Assembly: GCF_040183065.1 (NCBI RefSeq)
Contig: NC_091126.1
Coordinates: forward strand, 142,663,704 to 142,727,703
Direction of reading: 5' to 3'
Source: Periplaneta americana
Taxonomy: Eukaryota > Arthropoda > Insecta > Blattodea > Blattidae
DNA length: 64,000 nt
Part shown: in pieces, positions 3,414 through 38,053 of the stretch
Numbering within the stretch: position 1 is the first letter of the stretch
Layout: every line of letters starts with the position of its first letter
Position numbers and translations under genes: made by a program
The notes under the pieces: generated by a model
What the model saw: only the letters and a program-made list of their open reading frames with translations
What the model was told of the DNA's origin: nothing
Database searches by the model: none

Positions 3414-4492
3414 AAATAGAAATAGACTCTTGCATTTATTAACAATTTCTGAACTTCAGTGTAGAAAATACACATTTTCGTTACTAATATTAAAGTAAAT
3501 AACTTTATCCATAACTTCAATGTGATACTTGCACCTGGTTAGCTGTGCACAGGTGGTTGATCCTTGGCGGAATCGTTGACACTGCAAGCCTAATTTCTTC
3601 ATCGATGGATTTGAGTCTCTGCCTCTTTGATGTTTTAATTTCAGTTAACGTCAAGAAGCCCACTTCACACATGATATGTAGTGGAAATTTGAAATAACAT
3701 ATTAACTGCCATTTCGAACATAACCATTCCTTATTGACGACCAAAATTGTTTCCAAAGGCACTTCGAGAAGTTTTAATGTCAGTGTTTTGTCTGCTTTTA
3801 AATCTGGCAGTTCCTCTCGTACGAGTATATTATTCGGAAGATGGTTTGATTCCACAATGAATGGATCACGAACCCAGTCGAAATTTTTAACACTCTCTCC
3901 AAAATAATTCTTTAACTTATGCTGTAAGATTACTTAATGCTCTTTAATGAAGTCCATCAACACTTTATTATCGTCAGCAAGGGACCATACAGTTGGGAAC
4001 ATCTCAAACTACCGATTTTAAATAATCTATATTCACAAATTCAGTTTATTCACAAATATTTGAATCCCAGCCATACTAGTCAGAATATTTTCGTTCCTAA
4101 CTTGCATTTCTCTGTTAAGCTCATTCAAATGTACAAAAATATAGAAAAGATATGCCAACTTAAATACCCATTCATCATTTGCAAATAAATCTGCGTAATC
4201 ATGCTCTGGATATTAAAAAATTCAAGTACGGTACCTCCTCTTTATGGTCAAACATTCTCTCTAACACTTTACCTCGTGATAACCATCGAACTTCTGTATG
4301 TAACAAGAGTGTAATGTGCTCTGATCTATTTCCTGACACAAAACGGAAAAAAACCTCGTATTTAGGGGCCGCGATTTGATGAAGTTGACGACTTTTACTA
4401 CTTCGTCCAACACAATTTTCAGAGGAGATGGCAAAGAGCAACAATGGCTTCGCAGTGAATAAGACAGTGGTTGCTCCGTATGTTAGGATTTA

Positions 4493-5911: not shown

Positions 5912-6709
5912 TACTTCATGTACTTTAGCCACGAATCTTTCACTTGGCCTGTCATAGAAACGGTTCCATCTGTACAAATACTATCGCAATCCTCCCATGT
6001 TAATTAATTACGGACCACATATTTATTAGTTGTAAGAAATATTTCTTCACCGGTAGCTCGCTCGAGCAATTCTTTGCAAAAAATAAATTACTTAAAATTA
6101 CATCCACATCAATGTAACGAATGTGGGAAAGAAGGTGTGCGTGACCGACAATATTGGTGGACTCATCGATATGAAGTGACAACTTTTGACTGCTCTTTAT
6201 TTTCTCCTTCATAATGTCTTCGATGTCACTGGAATGCCACTAACACGGCTGGTATGTAGATTCACGCGCATGTAGGTTTTACGGGATATCGAATGGCCTA
6301 TAAGCAAAATATATATTTATGAAAACCTTATCAATTTCTGACAATAGGTAAAAGTTCGCGTCACACCTTTCACCTTGTGAAGGCACACCAGTGTCACGTG
6401 TCACACGGCACACCGGTTGCGGAAATTTGTTCTAGTATAACACAAAGGTTTAGTATCAATACTTAATACAAGACAAATATTCATGAAGCGGTTTTTAAAT
6501 GTCATAAATTCACCTACAGAATAGAAGGTGTGAGAAATTAGGTACTTCTTTAATATGGCTCTAAATACATAATTAATAATAGGAAAATTATCAGATAACA
6601 CAGTGATCATTAAAAATAAACGGCAAATATTTTAATGCACTCCGATCTCAAGAATTCGTAACAATCATTCCATATTGACAAACAAAATTAATGTTTGGTT
6701 TGTTATCAT

Positions 6710-8073: not shown

Positions 8074-8277
8074 TTAATTGACTTGGTGAGACTTGGTAAG
8101 AGGTTGCAGCACTCGAAAAAGGCATTATTAATTTCACAGGGAATAATCTTGTATGAACGCCACTATAGCGTCGTCCGAGTTTGCTCTGATAAATAATATT
8201 AAGATCTGAAATACATATGAAGATTAACTAATAATTTGCCCAAATTTGGTTTGAAGTGCACGTGTTATGCTCTGCAG

Positions 8278-8379
8278 ATACTGGAAAAACCGCTGAAAGC
8301 GGCAATGGCGAAGACCTGGGACGAACTACTCGCTATAAGAGACGACTAAGAGCAGCAAAAAATTATTTTTCAAGTACAG
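8278..8379 (+). CDS. duplicated cassette exon 1
   Basis: 102 nt between TCTGCAG and GTAAGTTG. In phase 1 it reads D-TGKTAESGNGEDLGRTTR..., open throughout. This is the most upstream intact copy. The alternative phase-0 frame contains a TAA here, which argues for phase 1. It encodes a polar 34-residue segment, acidic then basic, with no known domain. Confidence 0.7.
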
Positions 8380-8786
8380 GTAAGTTGTGCTACAAAATTT
8401 CAACATTCAATATTTATTTCGTAGGTGGTTAGGTTATTATCATTTCAAGGGAGCTTTAAACTTTTAGAAAAAGAAACTCAGAAATCTAATTGATTTGGTT
8501 AGACTTGGTATGAGTTTGCAGCACTCAAAAAAGGAATGATTAATTACACAGGAAATAATCTTATGTGAACGCCACTATAGCGTCTTCCGATTTGGTGAGA
8601 CTTGGTATGAGTTTGCAGCACTCAAAAAAGGAATGATCAATTTCATAGGAAATAATCTATATGAACGCAAGTATAGCATCTTCCGATTTTGCTGCGATCA
8701 ATGATACAAAGATCTGAAATACATATCAAGATGATGTAATATTTTGCCCAAATTTGGTTTTGAAGTACACGTGTTATGCTTTGCAG

Positions 8787-8879
8787 ATACTGGAAACACT
8801 GCTGACAGCGGCAATGGCGAAGACCAGGGACAATCTACTAGAAAACAAGAACCAGCAAAAAATGATTTTTCAAGTAGAG
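8787..8879 (+). CDS. duplicated cassette exon 2
   Basis: 93 nt (31 codons) between TTTGCAG and GTAAATTG. It reads D-TGNTADSGNGEDQGQST. It is nine bases shorter than most copies, so the deletion kept the frame. Confidence 0.7.
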
Positions 8880-9192
8880 GTAAATTGTGGTACAAAATTT
8901 CAAGATTCAACATTTATTTTGTAAGTGGTAAGATTATTGACAGCCTTTCAAGGGAGCTTTAAAATTTTAAAACAATATACTCAGGCCTCTAATTGATTTG
9001 GTGAGAATTGGCAAGAGTTTCCAGCACTGAGAAATGGCATTAATAATGTCATAGGAAATAATCTTACATGAACGCCACTATAGCGGTTTCCGATTTTGCT
9101 CTGATCAATGATACAAAGATCTGAAATGCATATCAAGATGAAGTAATAATTTGCCCAAACTTGGTTTTGAAATATACGTATATGCTTTGCAG

Positions 9193-9294
9193 ATACTGGA
9201 AACACCGCAGAAAGCGGTAATGGCGAAGACCTGGGACGATCTACTCGCTATAAGAGAGGACAAAAACAAGCAAAAAATGATTTTTCAAGTACAG
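9193..9294 (+). CDS. duplicated cassette exon 3
   Basis: 102 nt between TTTGCAG and GTAAATCG. It reads D-TGNTAESGNGEDLGRST and is open in phase 1. Confidence 0.7.
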
Positions 9295-9608
9295 GTAAAT
9301 CGTGGTACAAACTTTCGAGATTCAATATTTATTTCGTAGGCGGTTAATTTATTGACAGCATTTCAAGGGAGCATTAAAATTTTAGACAAAGAAACTCAGA
9401 AGTATAATTGATTTGGTATGAATTGGTATGTGTTTCTAGCACTCAAAAAAGCATTATTAATTTCATAGGAAATGATCTTATATGAACGCCACTATAGCGT
9501 CTTTAGAGTTTGTTCTGATCAATGATACTAAGATCTGAAATACATATCAAGATGAAGTAATACATTTGGCCAAATTTAGTTTTGAAGTACACATGTTATG
9601 CTCTGCCG

Positions 9609-9710
9609 ATACTGGAATTACCACTGACAGCGACAATGGCCAAGACCTGGCACAATATACTAACCATGACAGACGACAAAAATGAGCAAAAAATGGTTTT
9701 TCAAGTACAG
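9609..9710 (+). pseudogene. duplicated exon 4, inactive copy
   Basis: The acceptor is CTGCCG instead of CTGCAG, so the AG is lost, and phase 1 has a TGA near codon 25. It is the only one of the 13 short-array copies with a clear defect. The donor GTAAATTG is kept. The phase-0 frame is open. Confidence 0.7.
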
Positions 9711-10024
9711 GTAAATTGTGGTACAAAATTTCAAGATACAATATTTATTTCGTAGGTGATTAAGTTATTCACAGCATTTCAAGGGAGATTTAAAATTTTA
9801 GACAGAGAAGCTCAGACCTCTAATTGATTTGGTGAAACTTGGTATAAGTTTGCAGCACTAGAAAAATGCATGATTAATTTCATAGGAATTAATCTTATAT
9901 GCACGCCACTATAGCGTCTTCCGATTTTGCTCTCATCAATGATACTAAGATCTGAAATAAATATCAAGATAAAGTAATACTTTGCCCAAATTTGGTTCTG
10001 AAGTCCACGTGTTATGGTTTGCAG

Positions 10025-10126
10025 ATACTGGAAACACCGCTCACAAAGGCAAAGGCGAAGAGCTGCGACAATCTACTCGCCATAAGGGACAACAAAAACC
10101 AGGAAAAAATGATTTTTCAAGCACAG
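10025..10126 (+). CDS. duplicated cassette exon 5
   Basis: 102 nt between TTTGCAG and GTAAATTG. It reads D-TGNTAHKGKGEELRQST. It is more basic than its siblings (DSGNG replaced by HKGKG). Confidence 0.7.
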
Positions 10127-10440
10127 GTAAATTGTGGAACAAAATTACAAGATTCAGTATTTATTTCGTAGGTGGTTAGGTTATTGACAGCATTTCAAGG
10201 GAGCTTTCAAATTTTAGACAAAGAAACTCAGACCTCTAATTGATTTGGTGAGAATTGGTATGAGTTTGCAGCACGCAAAAAAGACATGATTAATTTCATA
10301 GGAAATAATCTTATATGAAAGTCACTATAGCGTCTTCCGATTTTGCTTTGATCAAAGATACAAAGATCTGAAATAATTATCAAAATGAAGTAATGTTTTG
10401 CCCAAGTTTGGTTTTGAAGTACATGTGTTATGCTTTGCAG

Positions 10441-10542
10441 ATACTGGAAACACCGCTGACAGCGGCAATGGCGAAGGACTGGGACAATCTATTCGCCAAA
10501 AGAGACAACAAAAACCAGCAAGAAATGATTTTTCAAGTACAG
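10441..10542 (+). CDS. duplicated cassette exon 6
   Basis: 102 nt between TTTGCAG and GTAAATTG. It reads D-TGNTADSGNGEGLGQSI and is open in phase 1. Confidence 0.7.
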
Positions 10543-10859
10543 GTAAATTGTGGTACAAAATTTCAAGATACAATACTTATTTCGTAGATGGTTAGGTTAT
10601 TGACAGCATTTCAAGGGTACTTTAAATTTTTTTCACATTGAAACTCAGGCCTCTAATTGATTTGGTGAGCTTTGCTAAGTGTTTGCAGCACTGAAAAAAT
10701 GGCAATATAAATTTTATAGGAAATAATCTTATATGAACGCCACTACAGCGTCTTTCGAGTTTGCTCTGATCAATAATACGAAGATCTGAAATACATATAA
10801 AGATGAAGTAATACATTTGCCCAAATTTGGTTTTGAAGTACACATTTTATACTTTGCAG

Positions 10860-10961
10860 ATATTGGAAATATCGCTGACAGCGACAATGGCGAAGACCTG
10901 GGACAATCTACTCGCCATGACAAACGACAAAAAAGAGGAAAAAATGATTTTTCAAGTATGG
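10860..10961 (+). CDS. duplicated cassette exon 7
   Basis: 102 nt between TTTGCAG and GTAAATTG. It reads D-IGNIADSDNGEDLGQST. The exon ends ATG-G rather than ACA-G. Confidence 0.7.
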
Positions 10962-11277
10962 GTAAATTGTGATACAAAATTTCAAGATTCAATATTTATT
11001 TCGTAAGTGGTTAGGTTATTGACAGCATTTCAAGGGAGATTTAAAATTTTAGACAAAGAAACTCATGCCCTCTAATTGATTTGGTGACACTTGGTATGAG
11101 TCTGCAGCACTCAAAAAAGGCATTATTAATTTCATAGGTAATAATATTATAAGAACGACACTACAGCGTCTTTCGAGTTTGCTCTGATCAATGATACTAA
11201 GATCTGAAATAAATATCAAGATGAAGTAATATTTTTGCCCAAATTTGGTTTTGAAGTAAACATGTTATGCTTTGCAG

Positions 11278-11379
11278 GTACTGGAAACACCGCTGGCAGC
11301 GACAATGGTGAAGACCTGGGACAATCTACTCCCCTTGAGAAACGACAAAAACCAGCAGAAAATGATTTTTCATGTACAG
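11278..11379 (+). CDS. duplicated cassette exon 8
   Basis: 102 nt between TTTGCAG and GTAAATTA. It reads G-TGNTAGSDNGEDLGQST. The following intron holds a 256-bp MITE. Confidence 0.7.
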
Positions 11380-11386
11380 GTAAATT

Positions 11387-11642
11387 AAAGCGTTGAGATC
11401 AATAAGCATTCAAGTCCACTTCTGGCCATTCATTTTTTGTAAATTAGAAATTAAATTTTGGATATTTCCACAAGTGTTACGACTTTATAAGTTAGTGAAC
11501 TATTATTTCTTGATCTCTAAAAAACCAGAAATATTACGTGCAATAATAATAAACAGGTAAGAAATATTACTTATTTTTTTTTTTTTGCATTTTCTCGAAA
11601 CTATTGTAAATGGACTTGAATGGTCATTGATCTCACCGCTTT
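11387..11642. mobile_element. MITE with AATT TSD in intron after exon 8
   Basis: The ends AAAGCGTTGAGATCAATAAG and, reverse-complemented, AAAGCGGTGAGATCAATGAC form a ~33-bp TIR that continues into ATTCAAGTCCA. AATT flanks both sides (11383-11386 and 11644-11647, with one unmatched base on the right). The other units have an empty site (GTAAATTGTGG), which proves the insertion. Confidence 0.9.
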
Positions 11643-11955
11643 CAATTGTGGTACAAAATTTCAAGATTCTCTATTTATTTCGTAGGTGGTTAGGTTATTG
11701 ACAGCATTTCAAGGGAGCTTTAAAATTTTAGACAAAGAAGCTCAGACTTCTAATTGGTTTGATGAGACTTCGTAAGAGTTTTGAGCACTCAAAAATGACA
11801 TTATAAATTTCATAGGAAATAATTTTATATGAACGCCACTATAGAGTCTTTCGAGTTTGCTCTGATCAATGATACAAAGATCTGAAATTTATATCAAGAT
11901 GAAGTAATATTTTTGCCCAAATTTGGTTTTGAAATACACATGTTATGCTTTGGAG

Positions 11956-12057
11956 ATATTGGAAATACCGCTGGCAGCGACAATGCTGAAGACCTGGGAC
12001 AATCTACTCACCATGAGAAACGACAAAAACCAGCAAAAAATTATTTTTCAAGTACAG
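11956..12057 (+). CDS. duplicated cassette exon 9
   Basis: 102 nt between CTTTGGAG (G for C, AG kept) and GTAAATTG. It reads D-IGNTAGSDNAEDLGQST. Confidence 0.65.
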
Positions 12058-12372
12058 GTAAATTGTCGTACAAAATTTCAAGATTAAATATTTATTTCGT
12101 AGGTGGTTAGGTTATTGTCAACACTTCAAGGGAGCTTTAAAATTTTAGACAAAGGAACTCAGATATGATATTGATTTGGTGAGGCTTGGTAAGAGTGTGC
12201 ATCACTCAGAGAAGGCATTAATAATGTCATAGGAAATAATGTTATATGGCCGCCACTGTAGCGTCTTTGGAGTTTGCTGTGATCAATGTTACTGATAACT
12301 GAAATTCATATCATTATGTAGTAATAATTTTGCCCAAATTAGGTTTTGAAGTGCACATGATATGCTTTGCAG

Positions 12373-12474
12373 ATATTGGAAATACCGCTGACAACATCAA
12401 TTGCGAAGACCTGGGACAATCTACTCGTAGTGAGGGACGACAAAAACCAGCAGAAACTGATTTTTCAAGTACAG
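12373..12474 (+). CDS. duplicated cassette exon 10
   Basis: 102 nt between TTTGCAG and GTAAATTG. It reads D-IGNTADNINCEDLGQST and is open in phase 1. Confidence 0.7.
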
Positions 12475-12786
12475 GTAAATTGTGGTACAAAATTTCAAAA
12501 TTCAATATTTATTTCTTACGTGGTTAGGTTATTGACAGCATTTCAAGGGATCTTTGACATTTTTGGCAAATAAACTCAGGCCTCTAATTGATTTGGTGAG
12601 ACTTGGTATGAGTTTGCAGCACTCAAAAAAGGCATTAATATCATAGGAAATTACCTTATATGAACTACACTACAACGTATTTCCAGTTTGCTCTGATCAA
12701 TGATAGTAAGATCTGAAATACATATGAAGATGAAGTGATACTTTTTCCCGAATTTAGTTTTGAAGTACACAAGTTATGGTTTGCAG

Positions 12787-12888
12787 TTACTGGAAATGCC
12801 GCTGATAGCGACAATAGCGAAGACCTGGGACAATCTACTCGCCAGGAGAAACGACAAAAACGAGCAAAAAATTATTTTTCAAGTACAG
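12787..12888 (+). CDS. duplicated cassette exon 11
   Basis: 102 nt between TTTGCAG and GTAAATTG. It reads V-TGNAADSDNSEDLGQST and starts with TT like the diverged downstream exons. Confidence 0.7.
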
Positions 12889-13190
12889 GTAAATTGTGGT
12901 ACAAAATTTCAGGATTCATTATTTCTTTCGTAGGTGATTAGTTTATTGACAGAATATCAAGGGAGCTTTACAATTTTACACAAAGGAACTAAGATATCTA
13001 ATTGATTTGGTAGGAGCCTGCAGCATTCAAAAAAGGCATTAATTTCATAGGAAATAATATTATAAGAACGACACTACAGCGTCTTTCGAGTCTGCTCTGA
13101 TCAATGATACAAAGAGCTGGAATACATATCAAGATGAAGTAATACATTTTCCCAAATTTGGTTTTGAAGTACACATGTTATGCTTTGCAG

Positions 13191-13289
13191 ATATCGGAAA
13201 TACCGCTGACAGAGACAATGGCGACCTGGGACAATCTACTCGCCACGAGACACGAGAAAAACGAGCAAAAAATTATTTTTCAAGTACAG
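13191..13289 (+). CDS. duplicated cassette exon 12
   Basis: 99 nt between TTTGCAG and GTAAATTG. It reads D-IGNTADRDNGDLGQST. One codon is missing relative to siblings, so the frame is kept. Confidence 0.7.
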
Positions 13290-13604
13290 GTAAATTGTTG
13301 TACAAACATTCAAGATTCAATATTTATTTCGTAGGTTGTTAGGTTATTGACAGCATTTCAAGGGAGCTTTCAAATTTTAGACAAAGGAACTGAGATATCT
13401 AATTGATTTGGTGAGACTTGTTAACAGTCTGCAGCACTCAAAAAAGGCATTATTAATTTCATAGAAAATAATATTATATGAACGACACTACAGCGTCTTT
13501 CGAGTTTGCTCTGATCGATGATACTAAGATCTGAAATACATATCAAGAAGAAGTAATATTTTTGCTCAAATTTGGTTTTGAAGTACGCATGTTATGCTTT
13601 GCAG

Positions 13605-13706
13605 ATACTGGAAACACCGCTGGCAGCGACAATGGTGAAGACCTGGGACAATCTACTCGCCATGAGAAACGACAAAAACGAGCAAAAAATGATTTTTCAG
13701 ATACAG
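13605..13706 (+). CDS. duplicated cassette exon 13
   Basis: 102 nt between TTTGCAG and GTAAATTG. It reads D-TGNTAGSDNGEDLGQST. Last exon of the short-period array. Confidence 0.7.
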
Positions 13707-14072
13707 GTAAATTGTTTTATAAAAATTTCAAGATTCAATTTTTATTTGTTAGATAATGTTATTGACAGCACTTCAAGGAAGCTTTAAAATTTTAGACAAA
13801 GAAACTCAGACCTCTAAATTGGAAGATACATTTCTCGAGTCCATAACGTTAATGACAATTCTTGTGACTAGTAATTTTGAGGACTACTAAGACGTAACAT
13901 AATACACACATTAATTAAATATTCAGCATTTATTAGCATGCTTAACCTGCCATTTCTATTTACATACCTTCCACTGAGTCTAAGGTAGAAAAAAGTCATT
14001 TCGTGGTACACTAGACATCTAAATAAATGCGGGCCTCCTGGTGATGGGATCAGCATGACACTTAGCCATAGC

Positions 14073-14200
14073 AGAGACATCACGGGACGGTCACAAGACA
14101 ACGAACGAACACCCAGTTTCGTGGACGTAAGATAAATTCTTTTATTGTCCTCGCCGGAAATATAATCCCGGAGCGATTGGTGAGGAAACACACACGCTAC
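14073..14200 (+). other. conserved non-exon block of the long repeats
   Basis: TCACGGGACGGTCACAAGAC, a GTGGACGTAAG donor-like sequence, and GGAGCGATTGGT are shared with B (16415-16530), C (19425-19500) and D (23035-23150). It resembles a small exon (CAG acceptor, GTAAG donor, 52 nt in A and B). But 52 nt breaks phase, and C and D carry stops or a lost donor, so a regulatory or merely inherited block is as likely. Confidence 0.4.
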
Positions 14201-14396
14201 CCACTATTGCCACAAATTTAATATTACATTTTCAACATAAGTGTAAATATTTCTCCAGTTGCTGCCAGGTCTCTGGCTCTCTAATCATTTTTGTGTTTCA
14301 GATGTTTAGCAAATAATAGTGTGCACATGATCACCGAATAAGTGTCTACTCAGAACTCAGGGTTATTTGTAGCGTTGTGTAAGAATACAGGGTGTA

Positions 14397-14881
14397 AGAG
14401 GACCGATGCACAAAATTTAAGAGGTGATTCTACACGTTAAATGTAAGAAAACTTTTATTATATTTTTCCTTCGTTGATTCACCGTTGAGGAAAAAATAGT
14501 CTTTGCCCAATGTTTGTAGCGCTCTATTGCGGTAATGGCCTGAGAGAAATAGCTGATTGCTGGCTATATAAGCAGATAGAAAAAAAAATAAACTTAACGG
14601 TTACTGTCTTGCGTCTTTTTTTTAAATTAAAGCGTTCATCCATGAATTTAAATTGAATAATTGACTGAGTACAGCAGAGGAGGTGGGGGAGGTAAGGAGT
14701 GCAGGCCGCGTTTGGTAGAGTGTATTTCAGTAGCCGTGATGTTGCCAAATGCTTCATAGAAACATAACGATTTCCTCTAAAACGGTGAATGTTAGAGAAA
14801 AAAAACATATTTAGAACTTTCAAATATCTTCTCATGATCTATTACCAGTTTCATTTTGGTGCAGAGGTTACATCCAACCTG
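14397..14881. mobile_element. TA-flanked MITE in block A
   Basis: The ends CAGGGTGTAAGAGGACC and, reverse-complemented, CAGGTTGGATGTAACC lie between TA dinucleotides (14395-14396 and 14882-14883). Block B has no such insert at the matching place (near 17395). No coding region. Confidence 0.75.
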
Positions 14882-15119
14882 TATAGTTCTACTCAGTATA
14901 GGAAACCTTGAAAAGCAAAACTAAAACTTCTATGCTCGTACACGAATCTTTCAAAAGCTTCCATGCTATTAAATTCTGGGTCTTCTTACCTTATACGCTA
15001 AGGAATAGTGAAGCCTACACATTTTTCCTTATTTCTACTTGTTCTAATGATTGTAGTGATTATCAAATGTCGGGCTGAATTTTTTATTTCTTACGAATTT
15101 TGGTACTGACATATCTGTA

Positions 15120-15344
15120 GTGCTCGGGAAAAGTGGCACAAGTCAAAAATGTTAATTTTACAGGAGAATGAAAATAACTGTCTTCAGACTGGTTTATGTC
15201 GATTTGATTTTCTTCTGTATGAATTATTGTAATGGGAGAAATACTTACGTCTCTTTTCCCAAGCGAGCAGATGTTCCTTAAGTTGTAAATAAATTATTAA
15301 AAAATGTTTGTGGAAACTGACTTATACCACTTTTCCCAAGTACT
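15120..15344. mobile_element. short TIR element in block A
   Basis: The left end GTGCTCGGGAAAAGTGGCAC and right end GTACTTGGGAAAAGTGGTAT (reverse complement) face each other. Block B is empty here (GGTACTGA...AGCAAGTGGCAG near 17670-17695). The TSD is not certain. Confidence 0.8.
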
Positions 15345-15774
15345 GCAGGTATATAACAAGTGGCAGTCACATTATAACTGTTATGTTGACAGCATTCTTT
15401 GCTTCTGCCAACGCTCATGAAACGAATGTTACTAGCCAGTGATATTTGAAATTTGAACGTAACTTATAATTAATAATATTATAAATAATTAATAGGGAAC
15501 AGAGTAATTATTAAAATACAGAGCGTATATTTTAATGTTGTATTCGGTTTCGGAATTTGTAGTCTACTAATTATTCCATAGTTTCAAAAAAAATATATAT
15601 ATATATTTTTTTTAATTTAAGGCCCACGTATCGTAAACTGTTTAGTCGTACCAATGAATACCATGTTGCCAAAAATACATTTTAATATTGCATGAATGTA
15701 AGTATCAAATAATAAATAGAGAAACAAAAAAACAAACGAAAGAATGAAAGGAATAAATGAATGCATGCATGAAT

Positions 15775-15797
15775 GAATGAATAAATAAATAAATAAC
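15775..15797. repeat. short AAAT/AATG tract
   Basis: Tetranucleotide tract upstream of the exon in block A, the counterpart of the tracts at 7096, 18313 and 22160. Confidence 0.9.
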
Positions 15798-16039
15798 ACA
15801 ATAGTAGTATTTCAGTACTAGTATAGTGATTTTAAATTCTTTGCTGATATCTGGTAAGATTTGACAACACTAAAAAGACGGCTTTATTAACTCAAGAAGA
15901 ATAGATTCTTCGATGTGAACGCCATTATATTCTCTTTCGTGTTTCTTCTGACAAATCATACAAAGGTCTGAAAAACATGTCAACATGGATTTTTTTTTGC
16001 ACAAAATGGGTTTTAAAGTACACGTGTTATGTTTCGCAG

Positions 16040-16141
16040 TTATCGAAGTCAGCGACGGGAGCGACACTGTCGGCGTCCTGGGACAATCTACTTCCCAAGA
16101 GAGAAAGGAAAAAGCACCAGAAATAAATTCTTTGTGTGAAG
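16040..16141 (+). CDS. diverged cassette exon (block A) with SIM-like motif
   Basis: 102 nt between GTTTCGCAG and GTAAATAA, phase 1. It reads V-IEVSDGSDTVGVLGQST. The GQSTSQER stretch aligns with GQSTRHEK of the short array, so it is the same exon family. VIEV followed by SDGSD fits a SUMO-interacting motif: a hydrophobic core then acidic/serine residues. The phase-0 frame has a stop, so phase 1 is the coding frame. Confidence 0.75.
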
Positions 16142-16676
16142 GTAAATAATTGTAGTACAAGAGTCCAAAATTCAATATTTATTTCACAGGTTGGTAGGTT
16201 ATTGACAGAGTAATTTTGAGGACTACTAAAACGTAAGATAATAAATAGGTTAATTAAATATTCAGCTTTTCATAAAGCGGTTAACCTCTCATTTTTCTTG
16301 AATTACACACAACTGAGAGTAAGGAAGGATAACACACTCCATTGTACACTAGATATCCCACAAATGCAGGACTCATTGTGATGGGAACAGCATGGCGCTG
16401 GGCCACAATAGAGACATCACGGGACGGTCACAAGACAGCAAACGAACACCCAGTTCCGTGGACGTAAGCTAAATTGTTTCATTGCCCTCTGGAGGAACAG
16501 AATCTCGGAACGATTGGTCGGAAAACGTACACGGTACCCGCTATTGCAACCGCAACGGTAGAAATTTAATATTGTATTTCTAAATTGGTATACATATTTC
16601 TCCAACTGCAGCAATACCTCAGCTCTCGAATCATTTTCGTGTGTTTCAGATGTTTAGCGAATAATAGTGTGCATAT

Positions 16677-17349
16677 TAGAGATGAACAAAACTAACTGCC
16701 GCTCTCGATCGCTGTGTTCGTTGCATTTGTCTTTCGAGTCTCGACTCGTCATTCTCGAAATAGCATTTTGTCGGCGTGGAAATATTTCGTAACTTTGAAT
16801 AACATACATCATTGAAATAAATAACATTATAAATGTTTAAATGAGACAAAAAGACAAAACAGAACAGTATCTTAGTTATCAAACTGTTCTGGTTCTATTA
16901 TATTATATTACCTATGGTTATATAAAAAACAATTCTGAAATAAATTTGCATTTCTAAGAAACATAAAACATAACATTAATATCTTTTTACTTGAGATTGC
17001 ACACTTGATCTTAAACATATGAAAAGAAAATTCCTAGCTTTTTAATAAGGGCCTAGTAATTAAATAAAGACTGGGGAACCGATTATTATACACTGAAAGG
17101 AAGAGATGTTTCAAATAGGCTATTGATTGTAATACATATATAACAGTTTCCAATAGATGAAATTTCAGTCAGGTATAAACAACTCAGGCGATTCAAGGCT
17201 GCTTGACTTCGGGAGTCATCAATATCGAGTCTCGGAACACTCACAACCAGTCATTACGTCAAGGATCCGATGTAATACAACTTTGTCTTGCGGGTTTTCG
17301 GCTTTGCAGGCGCTGTTAGTCTCGCTTTCTCGATCGTTGTTCATCTCTA
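16677..17349. mobile_element. hAT-type MITE with perfect 8-bp TSD
   Basis: The ends TAGAGATGAACAA and, reverse-complemented, TAGAGATGAACAAC are flanked by GTGCATAT (16669-16676 and 17350-17357). Block A shows an uninterrupted GTGCACATGATCA site. No transposase remains. Confidence 0.93.
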
Positions 17350-18312
17350 GTGCATATGATCAGAGAATAGGCGTCTGCTTAGAATTCAGGATTATTTGTA
17401 GCATTATTCATATATGGGTTTTTCTTCCAGAAAAAGAGTATAATACTATTCAGAATAGGAAGCGTTGAAAATCGAAGTTCAGGTTCATATGTTGGTACAC
17501 AAATATTTCAAAAGCTTCCACGCCATTCAATTCTGGGTCTTCTTACATTATTCACTGAGGAAGAATGAACCCTACCAAATTTTCCTTATTACTGCATATT
17601 CTAGTGATTGCATTGATTTTCTGTTTGTGAAGTTTAAATTTTTTTTCCCTTTTTTTTCCCGAATTTTGGTACTGAAAAGAATAGCAAGTGGCAGTCATAT
17701 TATTCGGTAATTGTTATGTTGGTAGCATTCTTTGTCTCTGCCAAACGAATGTTGCTAGCGAGTGCTATTTGAAATTTGAACGTAACTAATAATTAATAAT
17801 ATAGGAATTAATAAACCACAAAGTACTAATTAAAAATATAGAACATATAACATATTGGTATGGTATTCGGTTTCGGAATTTGTACTAAACATTCCATATT
17901 TTCAAACAAAATATATATATATTTTATTTTAGTTCTCAATTGAAGGGTCCAGGGGAAAAGCCTGCTAAGTTACAGTTTACTCTTTTTAAAGGACAGCAAG
18001 TTAAAAGTTTCAAGGTCCATTACATTCTATTGTTTCTGAGTTATCATTCTTCAAATATATCTGGCTTAATCAGGTTTTTACTCTGTACAATTAAAAAACA
18101 GAAATCTGTACTCCCTGAGGTATTGCATGGCATCCAAAACAGAAAATCGATAATTTTGGACTTAACACGTTTTTTCACCTGACCATGGCCAAGTGACTAG
18201 TCACACCAATGAATATCAAGTTGTCAAACAAAATAGATTTTGATATTACATGAGTGTAAGTAAGAGTATCATAGAAATACATAAACAAATAAACAAAAAA
18301 CAAACGAACGAC

Positions 18313-18365
18313 TGAAATAAATAAATAAATAGACAGACAGAGAGACAAACAAACAAACAAACAAA

Positions 18366-18408
<43 letters not shown>

Positions 18409-18462
18409 ATAGGTAATTAGGTAAGTAAGTAAATAAATAAATAACTAAATAATTAAATAACT
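18313..18462. repeat. AAAT/AAAC microsatellite
   Basis: AAAT, GACA and AAAC tetranucleotides upstream of the exon in block B. Confidence 0.95.
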
Positions 18463-18529
18463 AATATTTCAGTACATATTATAGTGATTTTACCAGCTCT
18501 GATGATATCTTGTAAGACTTGACACAATT

Positions 18530-18799
18530 GAGGACCGTTTTTGCAAAACTTGCTAACTGCAAAATTTGCAAAATTGAGATTTTGAGGAATTCGTTAACAT
18601 AAGGCAGGCCTCTACATGATGTTAAAGGCGTCTTAGTAAAATTGGATTATTTCCCTTCATTGTGCTGTGTCAAAGTGTGATCGTTTTTTCAAAACTTGGT
18701 TACTCCTAAGTGAGAGTTAGCAGCAAAATTTGCTTACTACAGCGTTTGCCTCTCCTGCAATTTTTTTTTCAGTTAGCAAGTTTTGCAAAAACGGTCCTC
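18530..18799. mobile_element. MITE with AATT TSD and perfect TIR in block B
   Basis: The left end GAGGACCGTTTTTGCAAAAC and its reverse complement on the right are identical through AACTTGCTAACTG, about 30 bp. AATT flanks both sides (18526-18529 and 18800-18803). Block A is empty here. Further inverted copies of TTAGCA and AAACTTG lie inside. Confidence 0.93.
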
Positions 18800-18971
18800 A
18801 ATTAGAAAAACAGCTTTATTAACTTAATGAGAATTAATGTTAGGTGAATGTCTATATTATGATTTTCGCATTTGTTCTGTTCATTGATACCAAGATCTGG
18901 AAAATCATTTCAGTATGGAGTAATATTTATGCACAAATTGGGTTCTGAAGTACATATTTTTTGTTTCGCAG

Positions 18972-19061
18972 TTATCGAAATCAGCGACGACAGCATCATA
19001 GACTACGACCTGAGCAATTCTACTTATGAAACAATATTAGTAGAACCACCAGACTTTGCAG
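18972..19061 (+). CDS. diverged cassette exon (block B) with SIM-like motif
   Basis: 90 nt between GTTTCGCAG and GTAAATTG, phase 1. It reads V-IEISDDSIIDYDLSNST, ending EPPDFA. VIEISDDS is a textbook-like SUMO-interacting motif core. Phase 0 has an early stop. The exon is four codons shorter than most siblings but still divisible by 3. Confidence 0.75.
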
Positions 19062-19782
19062 GTAAATTGTAATCCAAGAGTACAAAATTCAATATTTACT
19101 TCGGAGGTTGGTAAGTTATTGACAGATTATGAAAGAGTATTTGCAATTTTAGACAAACAAAATCATACCTCTAATTTACAACATATTTTATCCATCCCCA
19201 ACCTTAATGATTTCTCTTATGACCAGTAATTTTGAGGACTACTAAGGCGTAACATAGTAGACACATTAATTAAATATTTAGCTTTTTATAACGTCCTTAA
19301 CCTCCCATTTTTTAAATATACACTATTTAGTGTAAGAAAGGAAAATTCATTTTATGGTCCAGTAGATATCCCACAAATGCGGGACTCCTAGCGATAGAAT
19401 CAGAACGACACTTGATCACTGCAGAGACATCACGAGACAGTCACAAGAAAACGAACGAATACTAGTTCTATGGGAGTAAGATAATTTCTTTCACTGCCCT
19501 CACAGAGTTTCATGTTCATGCAAAAGACGACAGCAAACTCTAAACAAAGATAATTTCTTTTATATTTCTTTTAAGATAATCACTTTGGCGCCTTTACTAA
19601 CCTGTAAAATGTATAAACAATAACTTTTGCATGTACTGATATCACGGATATTCTGTCAAAGTACAATAAACTAACGAGGGTATCTTATATTTTACGACGG
19701 AAAGCAAAGGTTTAGGGGAGAGTCGGGTAGTATCGGACATCGGGTAATATCGGACAGTGAGTTTCTATCATCTACCACACGA

Positions 19783-19858
19783 TGATAGTACCTGATTGAC
19801 ATGGTTACGTTTCTGTGATGTCGCATAGAGAAACGTAACCATGACATTCAGGTACTAC
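19783..19858. repeat. internal hairpin of the TIR element
   Basis: GATAGTACCTGATTGACATG continuing into GTTACGTTTCT faces its near-complement across a ~12-bp loop. The ~32-bp stem has a few mismatches. Confidence 0.85.
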
Positions 19859-19869
19859 CATATTTATTA

Positions 19870-21690
19870 TTTATTTATTATTATTTTGCTAATAATTGTA
19901 ACATAAAATATAAAATATACAGAGAAACTTTAGCTCGCCCCTGAAAGTAGAACTCGTGCTTAGGGGCGGATTCCTGAATTGAAATTAATAATTATACAAT
20001 ACAATTATAATTAATAATTATACAATACAATTTGCAATTATAGTATATAAATTTAAATTTACAATTTTTCAATTTTTATAAAATCCACACATAACTATTT
20101 AAATTTAATACTAGAACTATTCGAATTGACAAGATTAGGATATTTAAATATAAATTTGTTATATATTCTTGGGCCTAAATTACTACTATGAATAAATACT
20201 GTAACAGTGTTGCATTTTGGTTCAAACAATCATAAAGAATTCATACCTTTTGTTTCATAACTATGAGAATACAATTCAAAATTATTTCGATATTTATGTA
20301 TGAATTTTATTAATACAATATATTAAATTTGTCTTACGTTAAGTACATTAAAGTCTAGAAACAAATTTTGAGATGGAAAATCAATAGGTTTATGAAGACA
20401 TATTTTAATTATTTTCTTCTGTAATAAATAAAGAGGATTAAAATTGGATTTAAATGAGCTACCCCATCCTATAATTCCATACATAATTACCGATTGAAAT
20501 AAAGTTAAATATATTGTACGTAATAAACTTATTGACAAGTAATTCCACAATAAAACAAAATAATATACTATTTTACGTAATTTATTACAAAGGTAATTAA
20601 TGTGTTGGTTCCATTTTAAATGATTATCGAAAATTATGCCTAAATACTTAACTTCAGAGGACTCTTTAATAATCGGACATTTACACTGTATAAGACAACA
20701 ATCAGAATAAATGTAATTTAATACTCAATATAGATGTAGGAGGTTTGTTAAATTTTTCAGATAATGAGAATGGAATAATTATGGTTTTATTTTCGTTGAT
20801 AGAAAGATAATGTATGTCAAACCATTTTTTTTATTAATTTAAGTCCATTATTTGAATTATTATATGCACCATACCAGGTTTTTCCACCAAAAAGTAAAAC
20901 TGTGTCATCTGCATAAGGATAGTGAACACCATTGTATTGTTGTAAGTCAATTTTTAATAAGTCATTAATATATATTAAAAATAGAATAGGGCCTAGAACT
21001 GTGCCTTGGGGAACACCTATATTAATAATTAAAGGTTCACTTGAATAATTGTCAATTTTCGTTATTTGAATTCTGTCGTTAAGATACGATTTTATTAAGT
21101 TGAAAGCATTACCTTTGATTCCTAATAAGTCTAATTTCTCAATTAAGATATCATGTTTCACTGTATCAAATGCTTTTCTTATGTCCAGGAAAATACCAAT
21201 ACATTTGTTACCTTGATCAAATTCTCTAACAATTTTTTTAGTAACTTTATATATTGCATTATCTGTACTGAATTTTTTTCGAAAACCAAATTGATTATCA
21301 CTTAATATATTATGTTTATCAAGATAATTCATTAATCGAACTTCAATACATTTTTCTAGTAATTTTGAAATACACGAAAGTAATGATATTGGTCTATAAT
21401 TGTTCATATTTCTTTTGTCTCCTGTTTTAAAAACAGGTTTCACAATTGCATTTTTTAATTTATTTGGGAATTTGCCATTTAGAAAACATAAATTAAAAAT
21501 ATGAGTTAGAGGTTTGGCAATATAATTTATAACCTTCTCAACTATTTTAGCACTTACGTTATCAGGACCAGGTGATACATTATTTTTTTTGTAAGTTTTG
21601 GCTATATTGATTATTTCGTCATCTGTTACGGGGTAAAGATACATACAAGCATTTACTGAAGTTACATTGCTAAGGAAATTGTTATTTTTT
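19870..21690 (-). mobile_element. 5'-truncated LINE with reverse transcriptase (Jockey/CR1-like)
   Basis: The minus-strand frame 21644-20817 holds the reverse transcriptase palm: NNVSPGPDNV, NNYRPISLLSCISKLLEK, LDIRKAFDTVKHDIL, VPQGTVLGPILFLIYIND and the catalytic YADDT. A downstream frame (20550-20323) carries the C-terminal LRTIYLTLFQSVIMYGIIGW. The endonuclease domain is missing, so this is a 5'-truncated insertion, and the palm and C-terminal frames are separated by breaks. It inserted inside the small TIR element, so it is younger than that element and than block C. The 3' end is AT-rich near 19870-19880. Confidence 0.9.
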
Positions 21691-21947
21691 TATAGACGAT
21701 ACAATATCCAAGCCAATGTATGGTGGTAGATGAAAGAAACGCACTGTCCGATACTACCCGACTCTACCCTAACTCACATGTTGTATTCTGTTTATTGCCT
21801 TCTGTCAACGTAAATATAAGTTGGAGCCACGAGATTCACTTGTACAAAGATTGCAAACACAGTCAACACAGATATAATACACGTCGAATTTTTTTTCAGT
21901 AGAAACAGTGCTCGCAATGGCTACTTTTCATAGAAGTGTCCAGAATG

Positions 21948-22287
21948 ACAATAAATAAATAAATAGGTAGGAATGTAGGTAGGCAGGTAGGTAGGTAGCT
22001 AGATAGATACACAGACAGACAGATTAGATAGACGGATGGATGGATGGATGGATAGATAGATCGACAGATAGGTAGGTAGGTAGGTAGGTAGGTAGGTAGG
22101 TAGGGTAGATTAGATTAGATTGGATGGATGGATGGATGGATGGATGGATGGATAGGTAGGTAGGTAGATTAAATAAATAAATAAATAAAATAAATAAGTA
22201 AATAAGTAAATAAATAAAATAAATAAATAAATAAACAAATAAACAAACCAACAAACAAACAAACAAACAAACAAACAAACAAACAAA

Positions 22288-22362
<75 letters not shown>

Positions 22363-22365
22363 ATG
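21948..22365. repeat. compound tetranucleotide microsatellite
   Basis: AAAT, GGTA, GATA/GACA, GGAT, AAAC and AAAT tracts in series, plus a short GATTA tract. It is the greatly expanded counterpart of the AAAT tract of blocks A and B. Confidence 0.97.
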
Positions 22366-22587
22366 TTTCAGTTAACACAATAGAGATTTTACCTGTTTCC
22401 GTTTCACCTGGTGAGATTTGGCAACACTGAAAAGATAGCCTTATTAAGATCATAGCAACTAATCTTATGTGAACGCCACTACAGCCTCTTCTCATCAATG
22501 ATATCAAGTTCTGATAATTTTTTTAAGATAAAGTGTTCTTTTCTTTTGCACAATTTGAATTTTGATGTAGACATGTTATGTTTCGCG

Positions 22588-22666
22588 AGATCGGCACTGA
22601 CGACGGCGTGAGACAACAAGCTACTCCCATAAGAGAGAAAAAGATCATCAGAAAATGAAAGTCTAG
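22588..22666 (+). pseudogene. decayed cassette exon (block C)
   Basis: The position and flanks match siblings (GTTATGTTTCGCG before, GTAAATTT after), but the acceptor CAG is CGCG and the frame carries a TGA. Recognisable remnants are GACGACGGCGTGAGACAAC and ATAAGAGAGAAAA. Confidence 0.6.
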
Positions 22667-22822
22667 GTAAATTTGTTGTCGTGCAATTATTCAAGACTAA
22701 ATATTCATTTAATTAACTGGTAGTTTGTGGACAATTTATAATGGAGCGTTAACTTTTAGATAGCCGAAATCAGACCTCGGATTTAGAGTATATATTTTTA
22801 TCGGACGATTAACTTCGGAAGT

Positions 22823-23940
22823 AATTTTTGAAAATGTACATTAGTACTTATACGATCATTAAGATTAAATAAGTAGTAAATACATTAATTAAATATTAAT
22901 TAATTCTTTCTCACTTTGCTTTACCAAAATTTTTACGGCTTATACACGCCTGCGGGTAGCAGAGGAAAATTCGCTGGACACTTTAAAAACGAGGGTCTCT
23001 CTGAACGTGAAATCGGCAAGATGCTGGGCCTTCACAGAGGCATGAAGGGACAGTCACAAGGGAACGAAATCCAGTCCCATGGACGAAAGTTAAGTTCTTT
23101 GACTGCTCATGCCGAGAATATAAACTCAGGGCGATTGGTTAGGAAGCGCATACTCTATCCACATAGGGACTGAATTGGACAGAAATTTAATATCGTATTT
23201 CAAAATGGGTATAAATATTTCTCCAATTTCAGCCCAGTCTCTAATCCATTTTTGCGTCTGGATTGTGAAGCGAATAATAGTGTGAATATGATCAGCGAAT
23301 AGGAAACTTCTTAGAATTCATACTTATTTGTAATGTTATGTTTATGCGGGTTTTTCTCCAACAAAATGTAATGTCTATTAAGTACAGGAAGCCCTAAAAA
23401 TCAAAACTCAGACTACTGTCCTTTTACACGAATGTTCCAAATGCTACCATGCAAGCAGTCTCGTCACAGCTGTTCTTTTCATGTTACACTCCATTCCATT
23501 AATGCCGACACGTTTTGAAGTTCTTTATCCTCTCCCAGTGGCGCACCGATATTCCTCTAGAATTTTGGCATACTCTGCAAACGAGTTCTTAATGTGATGA
23601 ATGAGTAGATAATACTCCAGCATGAACATCACTGAAAACTAGAATACAGTATACGGACGAGTCAAGTCGCACATGCACGGTAAGTGTGAGGGTAGCAGAT
23701 GGATTTCCTTTGTCAGTACGACTAAGAACGTGGCGGCATTAATAGAACGAAATGTACCAAGACCTGGAAAACATTTCGATCTCAAGTAATATTTTTTGGA
23801 CATTTTGCATTTCAAGTACACATTTTGTTTGTCATAGTTATTAAGAAAAACAAGAGCAGCAGTGACTACGGCCAGCATAGCATCCAGGGACAAAAGTTAG
23901 ATAGATATTCCTCGTGTACAGAATTAGACCACGTATCATG
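22823..23940 (+). repeat. long duplicated block D
   Basis: Fourth and most diverged long repeat. It keeps the TTAATTAAATATTAA start, the GGGACAGTCACAAGGGAACG block, the GGGCGATTGGTTAGGAAG block and an exon-like segment, but lacks a long AAAT tract. Confidence 0.75.
23838..23915 (+). CDS. penultimate exon, tentative
   Basis: The acceptor GTCATAG precedes phase-1 V-IKKNKSSSDYGQHSIQGQ. The usual GTAAAT donor is absent. A GTACAG donor at 23916 would end the exon in phase 1 after 78 nt (26 codons) and join the terminal exon in frame. The weak donor makes this uncertain; it may be a decaying copy. Confidence 0.4.
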
Positions 23941-23996
23941 CAACGAGAATCACTTTCTCATGTTGTAGCGTAATTCTGTCATTGGTGATTTCTCAG

Positions 23997-26900
23997 CTGA
24001 GCCGAACAACATTCAGTCACCACCAGAGAACCTGACGCCATCCAAGGAGCATCAGGTCTTCCAGACACGTGGAAAATTTGAAAACTTCACTTACTCTGAC
24101 GAGGAAACCAGAATGTCAGCTGGCAAAGAAGAGGAGGAGCGGTGTGGGGACAGCATTGATAAATTTCTGTCGCCGCAGTCAGATAACACAAAAATGTTCC
24201 CAGTTTATTCAAAAACGGAGATGAAAACTGCGTGGTACGCAACAGAGGAGGCTCATGAAAATTCAAAAAATGAGTCGTCGCCTAAAAGCTTGAAGACAAA
24301 GACATCTCTTGCTCGTTCCGAAACAGAGGTATTTCCTTCATGCTCCAAAATAGATCTGATTCCAGCGTCATCAGATAGAAATGCATCTCTCCGCTGTTCG
24401 GAAAGTCAAAAGTCTCTTGCCTCTTTGGGAAGGTCTGTATCTCCCATCTGTTCCGGACCAAATGTGTCTTCAGACGATTCCGACGAGTTACCTCCTCCCG
24501 CTTGGCCAGAACGGAAGCTACCTACATCTTCCAAACAGGAGAAATTACCATTTTCTTCTGCACCCGAAGTGTCTCTAGTTTCTTTTGAAAGAGGGAAGTC
24601 TTGCAGCTCTTCGAAAAGAGCTGTATCACCATCAAACGTAGCACCGGGCAATAATAGTCTCATTGAAGCGTTGCCTTGCGACTCATCTGACGATGATTTG
24701 CCTCCCATTTGGCCAGAACGGGAGGTATCTAAATCTTCCAAACAGGAGAAATTACTATTGTCTTCTCCACCCCAAGCGTCTCTAGTTTCTTTTGAAAGAG
24801 ATAATTCTTCCAACTCCTTGAAAAGAGCTGTATCAACCTCAAATGTAACATCGAGTAATAATGCTGTCACTGAAGGGAGGATGTCTTGCGATTCATTGGA
24901 CAAGGAATTGCCTCCCGTTTGTTCAAGACGGAAAATAGTATCTAAATCTTCCAAAAGAGATAAATCACTATTCCCATATGGACGAGATGTGTTTCCAGAT
25001 TGTAATAACAGGAAAAAACCTACTAACTCTTCAGGAAAAACTGCGTCACTCTCAAACGTAGTGCCCTATAATTCCACTCTCATCAAAGGAAAGGTGTCTT
25101 GCGAATTTGTAAACGGCGAATTGCAACCCGTTTCGTCAAAAAGGAAAACAATTCCTAGACCTTCAAAAATAGAGAGCTCACTAGTCTCTTCTAAAGGGAG
25201 AAATTCTGTCGTCACATCAATGCCAGAAAAAGCTCCTACACTTTCGTTGCCGGGATGTTCTCCAATCTCTTCACCAAGTGCAATGTCTGATACTAAATCG
25301 TTGCGGGGCAGGTCTAGGCGTCGTTCGCCTGGGAAAAGATGTCGTGAACGATCAACCAGGATGAAATCTCGAGAGCGGTCCCGACGACAGAGATCGTGTG
25401 AGATGTCTTCTGTCTCTTATGCGCAAAAAAGTCGTCCCGAAATTCCACATTCTGTAAAAGAAATCAACAATATTGTACACGAACAATCTGTTATTCAGAA
25501 ACTGCCTGACAATTCTCCAAATACTCCGCATCGAAAGAAGTCTCCCGTATCTCCCTCGCGGGATATGTCTTCTACCATTTCTTCTTCTGTCAGTAACAGT
25601 TCCTCTTCCTTCCAATCGTACATAGTGACTCCCTTACGTTCGTCGCGGCGTAGGAAACGTGACCAATCCCTGCAGGACAGGTCTGCAATAAGTTGCAAAG
25701 CTTGCTCTCGTATGTTATCTAAGGTTACTAATCCTTTCCACAACACGTGGCTCAATCTCACGAAGACTAAACCGTCTGGCATGTGTTGGCTGCTTGAGTG
25801 TCCTATCGACAATTTTCTGCTGGGGCGTCCCCCTGGGTGGAAGCCCCCTAGCCCTTCGCCGACGCAGAGTTCTTCACACATTTCCCTGAGGGAGGAGTCT
25901 CCCACTTCTGCGAATGAAAGTTCTTTCCCTCCTCCATCCAATAATATGATTCCCATGTGTTCGTCGCTAGAGAAGAGAAGTTTTATTCCGTCGCTGCTGG
26001 ATGGGAATCGTGAGCCATCTCTCCAGGACAGGGAGAGGTCGCCTACAAGTTCTCCTGTCCTTTCGCTGAGTAGGAATTCTCCAGATCTTTCACTGAGGCA
26101 GACGCCTCCACACAGTTTCCCGAGAGAGGAGTCTCCCATCTCCACTCTGAATGAGAGTTCTTTTGCCCATCCAACGCATACTGAGACTCCCATATGTTCG
26201 TCGCTACAGAATAATCGTTCTGTTCCATCGTTGCTGGATGGGAATCGTGAGCCATCTCTCCAGAACAGGGAGAGGTCGCCTACAAGTTCTCCTGTCCTTT
26301 CGCTGAGTAGGAATTCTCCAGATCTTTCACTGAGGCAGACGCCTCCACACAGTTTCCCGAGAGAGGAGTCTCCCATCTCCACTCTGAATGAGAGTTCTTT
26401 TGCCCATCCAACGCATACTGAGACTCCCATATGTTCGTCGCTACAGAATAATCGTTCTGTTCCATCGTTGCTGGATGGGAATCGTGAGTCATCTCTCCAG
26501 AACAGGGAGAGGTCGCCTACAAGTTCTCCTGTCCTTTCGCTGAGTAGGAATTCTCCAGATCTTTCACTGAGGCAGACGCCTCCACACAGTTTCCCGAGAG
26601 TGGAGTCTCCCATCTCCACTGTGAATGAGAGTTCTTTTGCCCATCCAACGCATACTGATACTCGCATATGTTCGTCGCTACAGAATGATCGTTCTGTTCC
26701 ATCGTTGCTGGATGGTAATCATGACCCATCTCTTCAGGATAGGTCTTCAGATTCTACATTGAGGGAGCGATCCCCTATAAGATCACTGCCGGAGGAAGAA
26801 TCTTCCAAAGATCCCCTGCGGAAGGTATGTGTTGTACGGCCTATGGTGAGTGGCCAAGCCATTACGGACGAAGAGATAGAAATTGACAGGGATGTTATTA

Positions 26901-27112
26901 ATGAACGTTCTATTCCATCGTTGCTGGATGGGAATCGTGACCCATCTGTCCAGTATAGGGCTTCAGATTTTACTTTGAGGGAGAGATCCCCTATAAGATT
27001 ACTGCAGGAGAAAGAATCTTCCAAAGCTCCCCTGCGGAAGGTATGTCGTGTAGGTCCTAGGGTGCATAGCCCACCCATTACGTTCGAAGAAGCGTTAGAA
27101 ATGGATAGGTAA
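23997..27112 (+). CDS. terminal exon of Ser/Pro/Arg-rich repeat protein
   Basis: The acceptor GGTGATTTCTCAG is followed by phase-1 CT-GAG, open without a stop for about 1,037 codons to TAA at 27110. The first ATG (24113) lies 38 codons inside, so a spliced start upstream is likelier than that ATG. The protein is hydrophilic, about one quarter serine, and built of repeats: three ~70-residue units with ELPP-WPER and KQEKL-SS; an RS-rich stretch near residues 400-435 from the ATG (RSRRRSP, RERSRRQRS); three nearly identical 79-residue units (SLLDGNREPSLQ to CSSLQNNRSVP); and two ~69-residue units ending EEALEMDR or similar. A non-repeated patch near residues 525-575 has CKAC and later CWLLEC, possibly a metal site. 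No known domain was recognised. Composition suggests a disordered nuclear protein; function unknown. Confidence 0.85.
26034..26744 (+). repeat. three 237-bp in-frame coding repeats
   Basis: AGAGGTCGCCTACAAGTTCT starts at 26034, 26271 and 26508. Units 1 and 2 differ at only a few bases and unit 3 at slightly more. Each codes 79 residues. The near identity implies very recent expansion or gene conversion. Confidence 0.97.
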
Positions 27113-37669: not shown

Positions 37670-37741
37670 CGGCGCCGGGAATCGAACCCGGGGCCTCTCA
37701 GCTCTGGGCGCTGAGCGCTCTTTCCAACTGAGCTATGCCGG
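37670..37741 (-). ncRNA. tRNA-like sequence (SINE head), left arm
   Basis: The minus strand has TAGCTCAGTTGG (A box) and GGGTTCGATTCC (B box) at tRNA spacing. The acceptor ends CCGGC and GCCGG pair, and the D and T stems form. The anticodon region does not give a standard 7-base loop with U33, so it is a tRNA-derived repeat rather than a working tRNA. Confidence 0.7.
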
Positions 37742-37980: not shown

Positions 37981-38053
37981 CCGGCATAGCTCAGTTGGAA
38001 AGAGCGCTCAGCGCGCAGAGCTGAGAGGTCCCGGGTTCGATTCACGGTGCCGG
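37981..38053 (+). ncRNA. tRNA-like sequence (SINE head), right arm
   Basis: Inverted partner of the copy at 37670-37741, with few changes. A and B boxes are both intact, so polymerase III transcription is possible. The anticodon arm is abnormal in the same way. Confidence 0.7.

Follow-up and report, generated by a model that had tools for sequence, protein, structure and literature searches.

We describe here what appears to be a fast-evolving orphan gene of the American cockroach, Periplaneta americana, in which a row of tandem symmetric exons would encode a region of 34-residue repeats; we put the probability of this reading at roughly 0.6. The locus lies within a 64,000-nucleotide stretch of contig NC_091126.1 (forward strand, positions 142,663,704 to 142,727,703), which we call the window and number from its first letter, and the assembly to which it belongs, PAMFEO1_priV1 (GCF_040183065.1), comprises 3.23 Gb in 91 scaffolds (PMC12774602). 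Thirteen short tandem units, u1 to u13, are succeeded by longer blocks bearing four older copies of the same exon, b14 to b17, and then by one large exon (Table 1). Intact copies over the whole locus number 14 of 17 (12 units together with b14 and b15), and when these are joined to the large exon they yield 4,521 nt, phase base and stop counted, or 1,506 codons that are open throughout. Addition of the broken unit u4 to the joined model introduces a stop at residue 125.

When the 13 units were made to evolve neutrally along their tree at intron rates, a mean of only 4.47-5.71 remained intact in splice sites and frame alike, as compared to the 12 observed (P 0, 0, 0.001 and 0.0017, with 6,000 replicates for each of four indel settings). 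Indel-free simulations (5,000 replicates each), run with exon base frequencies, with the rate set to 0.8 or again with intron values, gave means of 5.81-6.57 of 13 and P values of 0.0024-0.0052. Length differences among the exon copies are 9, 3 and 12 nt, every one of them a multiple of 3. Where the intron consensus offers an open stretch, it remains open in 72% of copies at a length of 45 nt and in 68% at 60 nt (45 and 9 overlapping windows, respectively), whereas the exon frame remains open in 96% and 95%. A stop in the array frame is seen in u4 and b16, both of which are among the three copies, out of 17, that lack a splice site (hand-calculated P=0.02). Set beside the equal divergence of exons and introns and the undepleted replacements described below, splice sites and reading frame look maintained and residues do not.

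Architecture of the locus and its predicted product

The usual layout of a unit is TGCAG, exon, GTAAAT. The exon is 102 nt long in 11 of the 13 units, 93 nt in u2 and 99 nt in u12; an AG acceptor is present in 12 units, a GT donor in all 13 and an open phase-1 frame in 12. Unit u4 fails twice, with the in-frame stop and the loss of the acceptor coinciding in the same unit. Spacing between units is disturbed at two places, by a 97-bp partial duplication 5' of u2 and by the insert after u8. Every exon from u1 to b15, 15 in all, has G as its last base, followed by the two bases of a phase-1 codon that the next exon supplies. The original prediction, made from the letters of the window, had described 13 units with exons of 93-102 nt, 12 of them with acceptor, donor and open phase-1 frame, and this is borne out by the coordinates and translations; so too are its exon lengths in multiples of 3 (102, 93, 99 and 90 nt), its symmetric copies joinable in frame, which do form the single frame of 1,506 codons, and its 3.1-kb exon entered in the same phase, which runs open from 23997, in phase 1, to the stop at 27110-27112. 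Its four longer blocks with diverged exon copies were found as blocks, of which two carry intact exons (b14 and b15) and two carry broken ones (b16 and b17).

These blocks, which extend from 13.4 to 24.0 kb, are offset from one another by about 2.4, 2.9-3.0 and 3.6 kb. The exon of b14 has diverged from those of the units by 38% and that of b15 by 46%, with lower values (24-31%) in the flanks; between b14 and b15 the divergence is 34% in the exon and 24% in the intron (Fisher P=0.068). The starts of the b14 and b15 peptides (VIEVSD and VIEISD) resemble a SUMO-interacting motif, and no such start occurs in the units. Mobile sequences are also present in the blocks: an insert resembling a miniature inverted-repeat transposable element (MITE), with 39-nt inverted ends (97%), occupies 18526-18803 just 5' of b15, and an open reading frame (ORF) on the minus strand at 20820-21689, matching the reverse transcriptase family RVT_1, is inserted in the third long block and flanked by 39-nt inverted ends at 19740-19778 and 21723-21761 (92%).

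The large ORF consists of 1,047 codons (23969-27112, with its stop at 27110-27112), a stop-free length with a chance probability of about 5e-24 at its own base composition. An acceptor, ctcag/CTGAG, sets the start of the large exon at 23997 and the entry in phase 1. Ser (19.9%), Pro (10.2%) and Arg (8.5%) are abundant in the encoded protein, with Ala at 3.0% and Gly at 2.6%. For its internal repeats, nonsynonymous and synonymous rates (dN and dS) are about equal in all but one of the 13 pairs (ratios 0.76-1.7), and the members of that one are a single codon apart. Because a donor-like AG/GTAATT coincides with the stop, the gene may extend beyond 27112 and the large exon may be non-terminal.

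The joined product would have a mass of about 166 kDa, its 5' end not counted. Its repeat peptides are hydrophilic, with Asp, Asn, Ser, Gln, Lys and Arg abundant. In the unit peptides, residues 1-15 carry a net charge of -3 to -5 (0 in u5) and the remainder a charge of 0 to +7, unlike the b14 and b15 peptides, which are acidic in both parts. The predicted tail of 1,038 residues, which is Ser/Pro/Arg-rich, is probably disordered; an AlphaFold2 model of residues 531-650 alone had a mean pLDDT (predicted local distance difference test score) of 49.8 and was not usable.

Table 1. Exon copies and associated features of the cockroach locus, in window coordinates
Feature	Position	Strand	Description
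Tandem array	8076..13815	+	13 units of ~416 bp, one exon per unit (nhmmer)
Exon u1	8278..8379	+	102 nt, phase 1 intact
Exon u2	8787..8879	+	93 nt, intact
Exon u3	9193..9294	+	102 nt, intact
Exon u4	9609..9710	+	102 nt, broken: CG at acceptor and in-frame stop
Exon u5	10025..10126	+	102 nt, intact
Exon u6	10441..10542	+	102 nt, intact
Exon u7	10860..10961	+	102 nt, intact
Exon u8	11278..11379	+	102 nt, intact
Insert	11382..11647	.	Putatively MITE-like; in intron directly 3' of u8 donor; 40-nt inverted ends, 85% complementary
Exon u9	11956..12057	+	102 nt, intact
Exon u10	12373..12474	+	102 nt, intact
Exon u11	12787..12888	+	102 nt, intact
Exon u12	13191..13289	+	99 nt, intact
Exon u13	13605..13706	+	102 nt, intact
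Longer related blocks	13816..23996	+	Unit-like piece and long intron, with transposon insertions; starts near 13.4, 15.8, 18.8 and 22.4 kb
Older exon copy b14	16040..16141	+	102 nt, intact, open in phase 1 only
Older exon copy b15	18972..19061	+	90 nt, intact, open in phase 1 only
Older exon copy b16	22585..22666 (approx.)	+	Dead: no acceptor, stops in all three forward frames
Older exon copy b17	23838..23921	+	Acceptor present, donor lost; runs into stop just 5' of large ORF
Large exon	23997..27112	+	Phase-1 entry; Ser/Pro/Arg-rich; three families of in-frame internal repeats

Selection on the copies and competing explanations

The units alone leave the frame unfixed; the case for phase 1 comes from b14 and b15, which no other phase leaves open, and from the large ORF, which is entered in it. 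Relative to expectations from intron rates, the exons contain 12 synonymous variants where 18.7 were expected, a weak skew, and no stop of the kind reachable by a single change where 4.3 were expected, the stop in u4 lying two changes away from the consensus. A separate simulation of stops gave P 0.09 for the 13 units and 0.016 for 15 copies. Exon divergence shows a three-base periodicity (0.217, 0.117 and 0.142; permutation P 0.039), for which two other measures gave P 0.077 and 0.053 and which is equally strong in none of 37 overlapping intron windows. In phase 1 the ratio of nonsynonymous to synonymous rates (omega) is 2.19 among the 13 units, where twice the log-likelihood difference (2dL) is 7.2-7.3 and codon position 2 is the most variable. 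It is 2.14 among 15 copies (2dL 9.9 and 11.0 in two runs), to be read against 80 null replicates with a maximum of 9.8 and a mean of 2.4, the mark of a loose fit. The 21 control frames from introns had omega values of 0.60-2.15 and none reached a 2dL of 7.2, the one at 2.15 having 5.2; one reverse frame gave an omega of 0.57 with 2dL 5.3. Positive selection as a firm claim was set aside in view of the loose null, the weak skew in variants and the strong departure from unity in the closed phase-2 frame that is described below. Taken together, periodicity and the omega pattern hint at translation and at an excess of replacements, short of proof of positive selection.

A number of observations weigh against a maintained repeat region. 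Exons diverge at the intron rate: mean pairwise divergence among the 13 units is 15.7% in the exon, 15.4% in the upstream intron up to 25 nt from the acceptor and 16.5% in the downstream intron from its 11th nucleotide on, and the exon-to-intron rate ratio of 1.11 over 15 copies is not significant (log-likelihood -2951.43 vs -2951.93). Replacements are undepleted (67 vs 66.1 expected from intron rates), the components of intactness are weak when taken singly (P 0.05-0.17 for stops and 0.06-0.15 for splice sites), and two of the four older copies, b16 and b17, are dead. The frame that departs most from an omega of 1 is phase 2 (0.38, 2dL 14.7), which is closed in all copies; phase 0 is open in 12 of the 13 units, u4 included; and other frames open in the exon consensus persist in 92-94% of copies, nearly like phase 1. 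The gene model, moreover, is drawn from genomic sequence, and no 5' exon was found. Equal divergence, undepleted replacements, the death of one unit and two older copies and the weakness of each component by itself are all to be expected of a decaying array, in which the large exon, and perhaps b14 and b15, would belong to a real gene while the 416-bp units drift neutrally, either skipped or untranscribed. We consider such decay unlikely, and it keeps some weight because the residues appear unconstrained and all of the evidence is genomic; what speaks against it is the joint intactness of 12 of 13 units (P <=0.0052 under neutrality), the restriction of exon indels to multiples of 3 and the lower persistence of open stretches in the introns (72% and 68%, vs 96% and 95% for the exon frame). 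The original prediction had named, as an outcome that would tell against it, frame breaks in exon copies whose divergence kept pace with that of the introns; the rates did prove equal, whereas broken copies are scarcer than under neutrality.

That prediction had also left the choice between a combinatorial protein and a long 34-residue repeat region, of which the repeat region now seems likelier and the combinatorial protein found no support. Combinatorial or mutually exclusive splicing, with one or a few copies per transcript and many isoforms as in Dscam, accords with the symmetric 1-1 phase of all intact exons, any subset of which can be joined, and with the differences in residues between copies. 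It is nonetheless distinctly unlikely: a search for consensus RNA structure, scored against column shuffles and with long-range docking outside its reach, found none in the exon flanks (12 units, z +0.09) or the introns (n=10, z +0.22), which fold no better than shuffled columns, and mutual exclusion is needless for symmetric exons. Units translated in phase 0, as exons belonging to a different product that bypasses the large ORF, would accord with the wide openness of that phase, u4 included; with phase 0 closed by a stop in u1 and also closed in b14 and b15, an omega of 1.48 that is not below 1, and a large ORF that is reached in phase 1 only, we find this highly improbable. A more specific form of the orphan-gene reading supposes diversifying selection on a gene restricted to cockroaches, in which the exons are kept spliceable and open, the residues are driven to change and exon number varies among individuals. 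We hold this to be rather unlikely, and we are just as hesitant about its corollary, that the pattern is the one expected under genetic conflict, be it reproductive, chromosomal or immune.

Relatives, known systems and the surrounding window

The locus is apparently single-copy, with no second copy among the best-scoring genome candidates. The only genome match of the large ORF was to itself (best 15 candidates scored), and all 13 matches of a probe centred on b14 and reaching into its flanks (15930-16240) fell within the locus (best 11 candidates scored). The 5' edge of each unit, its first ~98 bp, is a dispersed repeat that is 72-79% alike at nine other genome sites, and these nine DNA matches (best 11 candidates) were rejected as gene copies because they cover that edge only. 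No further units were found in 60 kb upstream or 10 kb downstream. Neither the large ORF nor a join of five of the 13 unit peptides matched a Pfam family at E<=1, and PDB sequences gave no match at E<=0.01. In a protein database the whole large ORF had no match at E<=1 among the best 7,987 candidates, which its low complexity may have crowded, and residues 556-640 had none at E<=0.1 among 25 candidates. The protein searches covered the large ORF and not the joined repeat region, in collections that are possibly poor in insects, this genome's own protein not having been returned. The absence of matches in Pfam, PDB and the protein database agrees with the earlier impression that no known family is represented. 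Three pattern matches to the large ORF among viral contigs were not confirmed, and we found no literature on tandem exons in Periplaneta americana and no description of this locus among the papers listed. The gene is thus an apparent orphan in the sense of having no detectable relative in the collections searched, a term that says nothing on other cockroaches or termites.

The architecture, consisting of iterated exon-intron units, is already known from other genes, and there is no sign in the sequence of a link by descent between this apparent orphan and the systems compared here. The PEVK region of titin is encoded by many short symmetric exons and is rich in Pro, Glu, Val and Lys. It resembles the cockroach locus in its many short symmetric exons and in a region that is probably disordered, and differs in composition, the cockroach repeats having Asp, Asn, Ser, Gln, Lys and Arg as their abundant residues. 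Iterated exon-intron units are described for silk genes, such as Argiope MaSp2 and the flagelliform spidroin, and other genes, tenascin-X among them, are cited alongside spider silk in the same account (PMC9779670). Silk genes, like the cockroach locus, derive a repeat protein from a row of similar exons between similar introns, and a row of homologous exons and introns in matching phase is what we find here, as a likeness of architecture and not of descent. Silk introns within a gene are given as 97.6% similar on average (PMC9779670), whereas the cockroach units differ by ~16%. Spidroins have characteristic terminal domains and Gly/Ala-rich motifs; the large ORF has no Pfam match and lacks the silk motif composition, the N-terminus lying outside the model. 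The grass CENP-C gene, as described in the cited work, also has tandem duplicated exons within one gene, with replacement excess in the duplicated region, and its copies are few (PMC549713); in the cockroach large ORF no C-terminal CENP-C cupin domain was found, Pfam giving no family at E<=1. A genome-wide search for that domain (PF11699) found nothing, which says little, since controls matched in four of 14 genomes and none above the cut-off. The arthropod Dscam arrays of tandem duplicated exons are mutually exclusive and encode immunoglobulin (Ig) segments (PMC3236188), whereas the cockroach exons encode freely joinable, hydrophilic 34-residue repeats, with no Ig match in Pfam for the five joined unit peptides or the large ORF.

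In scans of the surroundings, no Pfam domain was present on the plus strand of the window from position 1 to 8.1 kb or at one upstream locus (L009), five other upstream loci having been left out, and the plus strand from 27.1 to 57 kb, with 57-64 kb and a further locus (L015) left out, contained reverse transcriptase alone. The minus strand was scanned for domains in two ORFs only. A second RVT_1 match is found at 34513-34980 on the plus strand (E 6.8e-17), and a minus-strand ORF at 36582-37046 matches GIY-YIG weakly, short of the curated cut-off. There are possible tRNAs at 37666-37742 and 37980-38056 (tRNA-Trp by both programs, tRNA-Cys by ARAGORN only) and at 47666-47738 (Rfam only, low score). 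Minus-strand ORFs at 3520-3933 and 6003-6239 may be relics of hAT-type transposases.

A possible history and its meaning

If the locus is an orphan gene with a repeat region, a symmetric 1-1 exon would have been duplicated along with its flanking intron in 2-3-kb blocks, and a shorter form of 416 bp amplified in tandem, presumably by unequal crossing-over. Pre-mRNA would be spliced through the 12 intact units and the two older copies into the 3.1-kb exon, giving a chain of 34-residue repeats, those of the units mostly acidic in their first half and neutral to basic in their second, and ending in the 1,038-residue tail. With phase 1 at both ends of every exon, the gain, loss or skipping of a copy would leave the frame undamaged. 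The combined failure of acceptor and frame seen in u4 and b16 fits this: where its acceptor is gone as well, as in u4, a stop-bearing copy would do no harm. Selection would hold the copies spliceable and open and would not hold their residues, as fits a spacer-like or conflict-driven repeat region.

If transcribed, the locus would be a clear case of the growth of an orphan gene by tandem exon duplication. It brings together several age classes at one place, from the units through older intact copies to dead relics, and would allow a direct test of what selection keeps first in such a gene; splice sites and frame seem to be held, and the amino acids do not.

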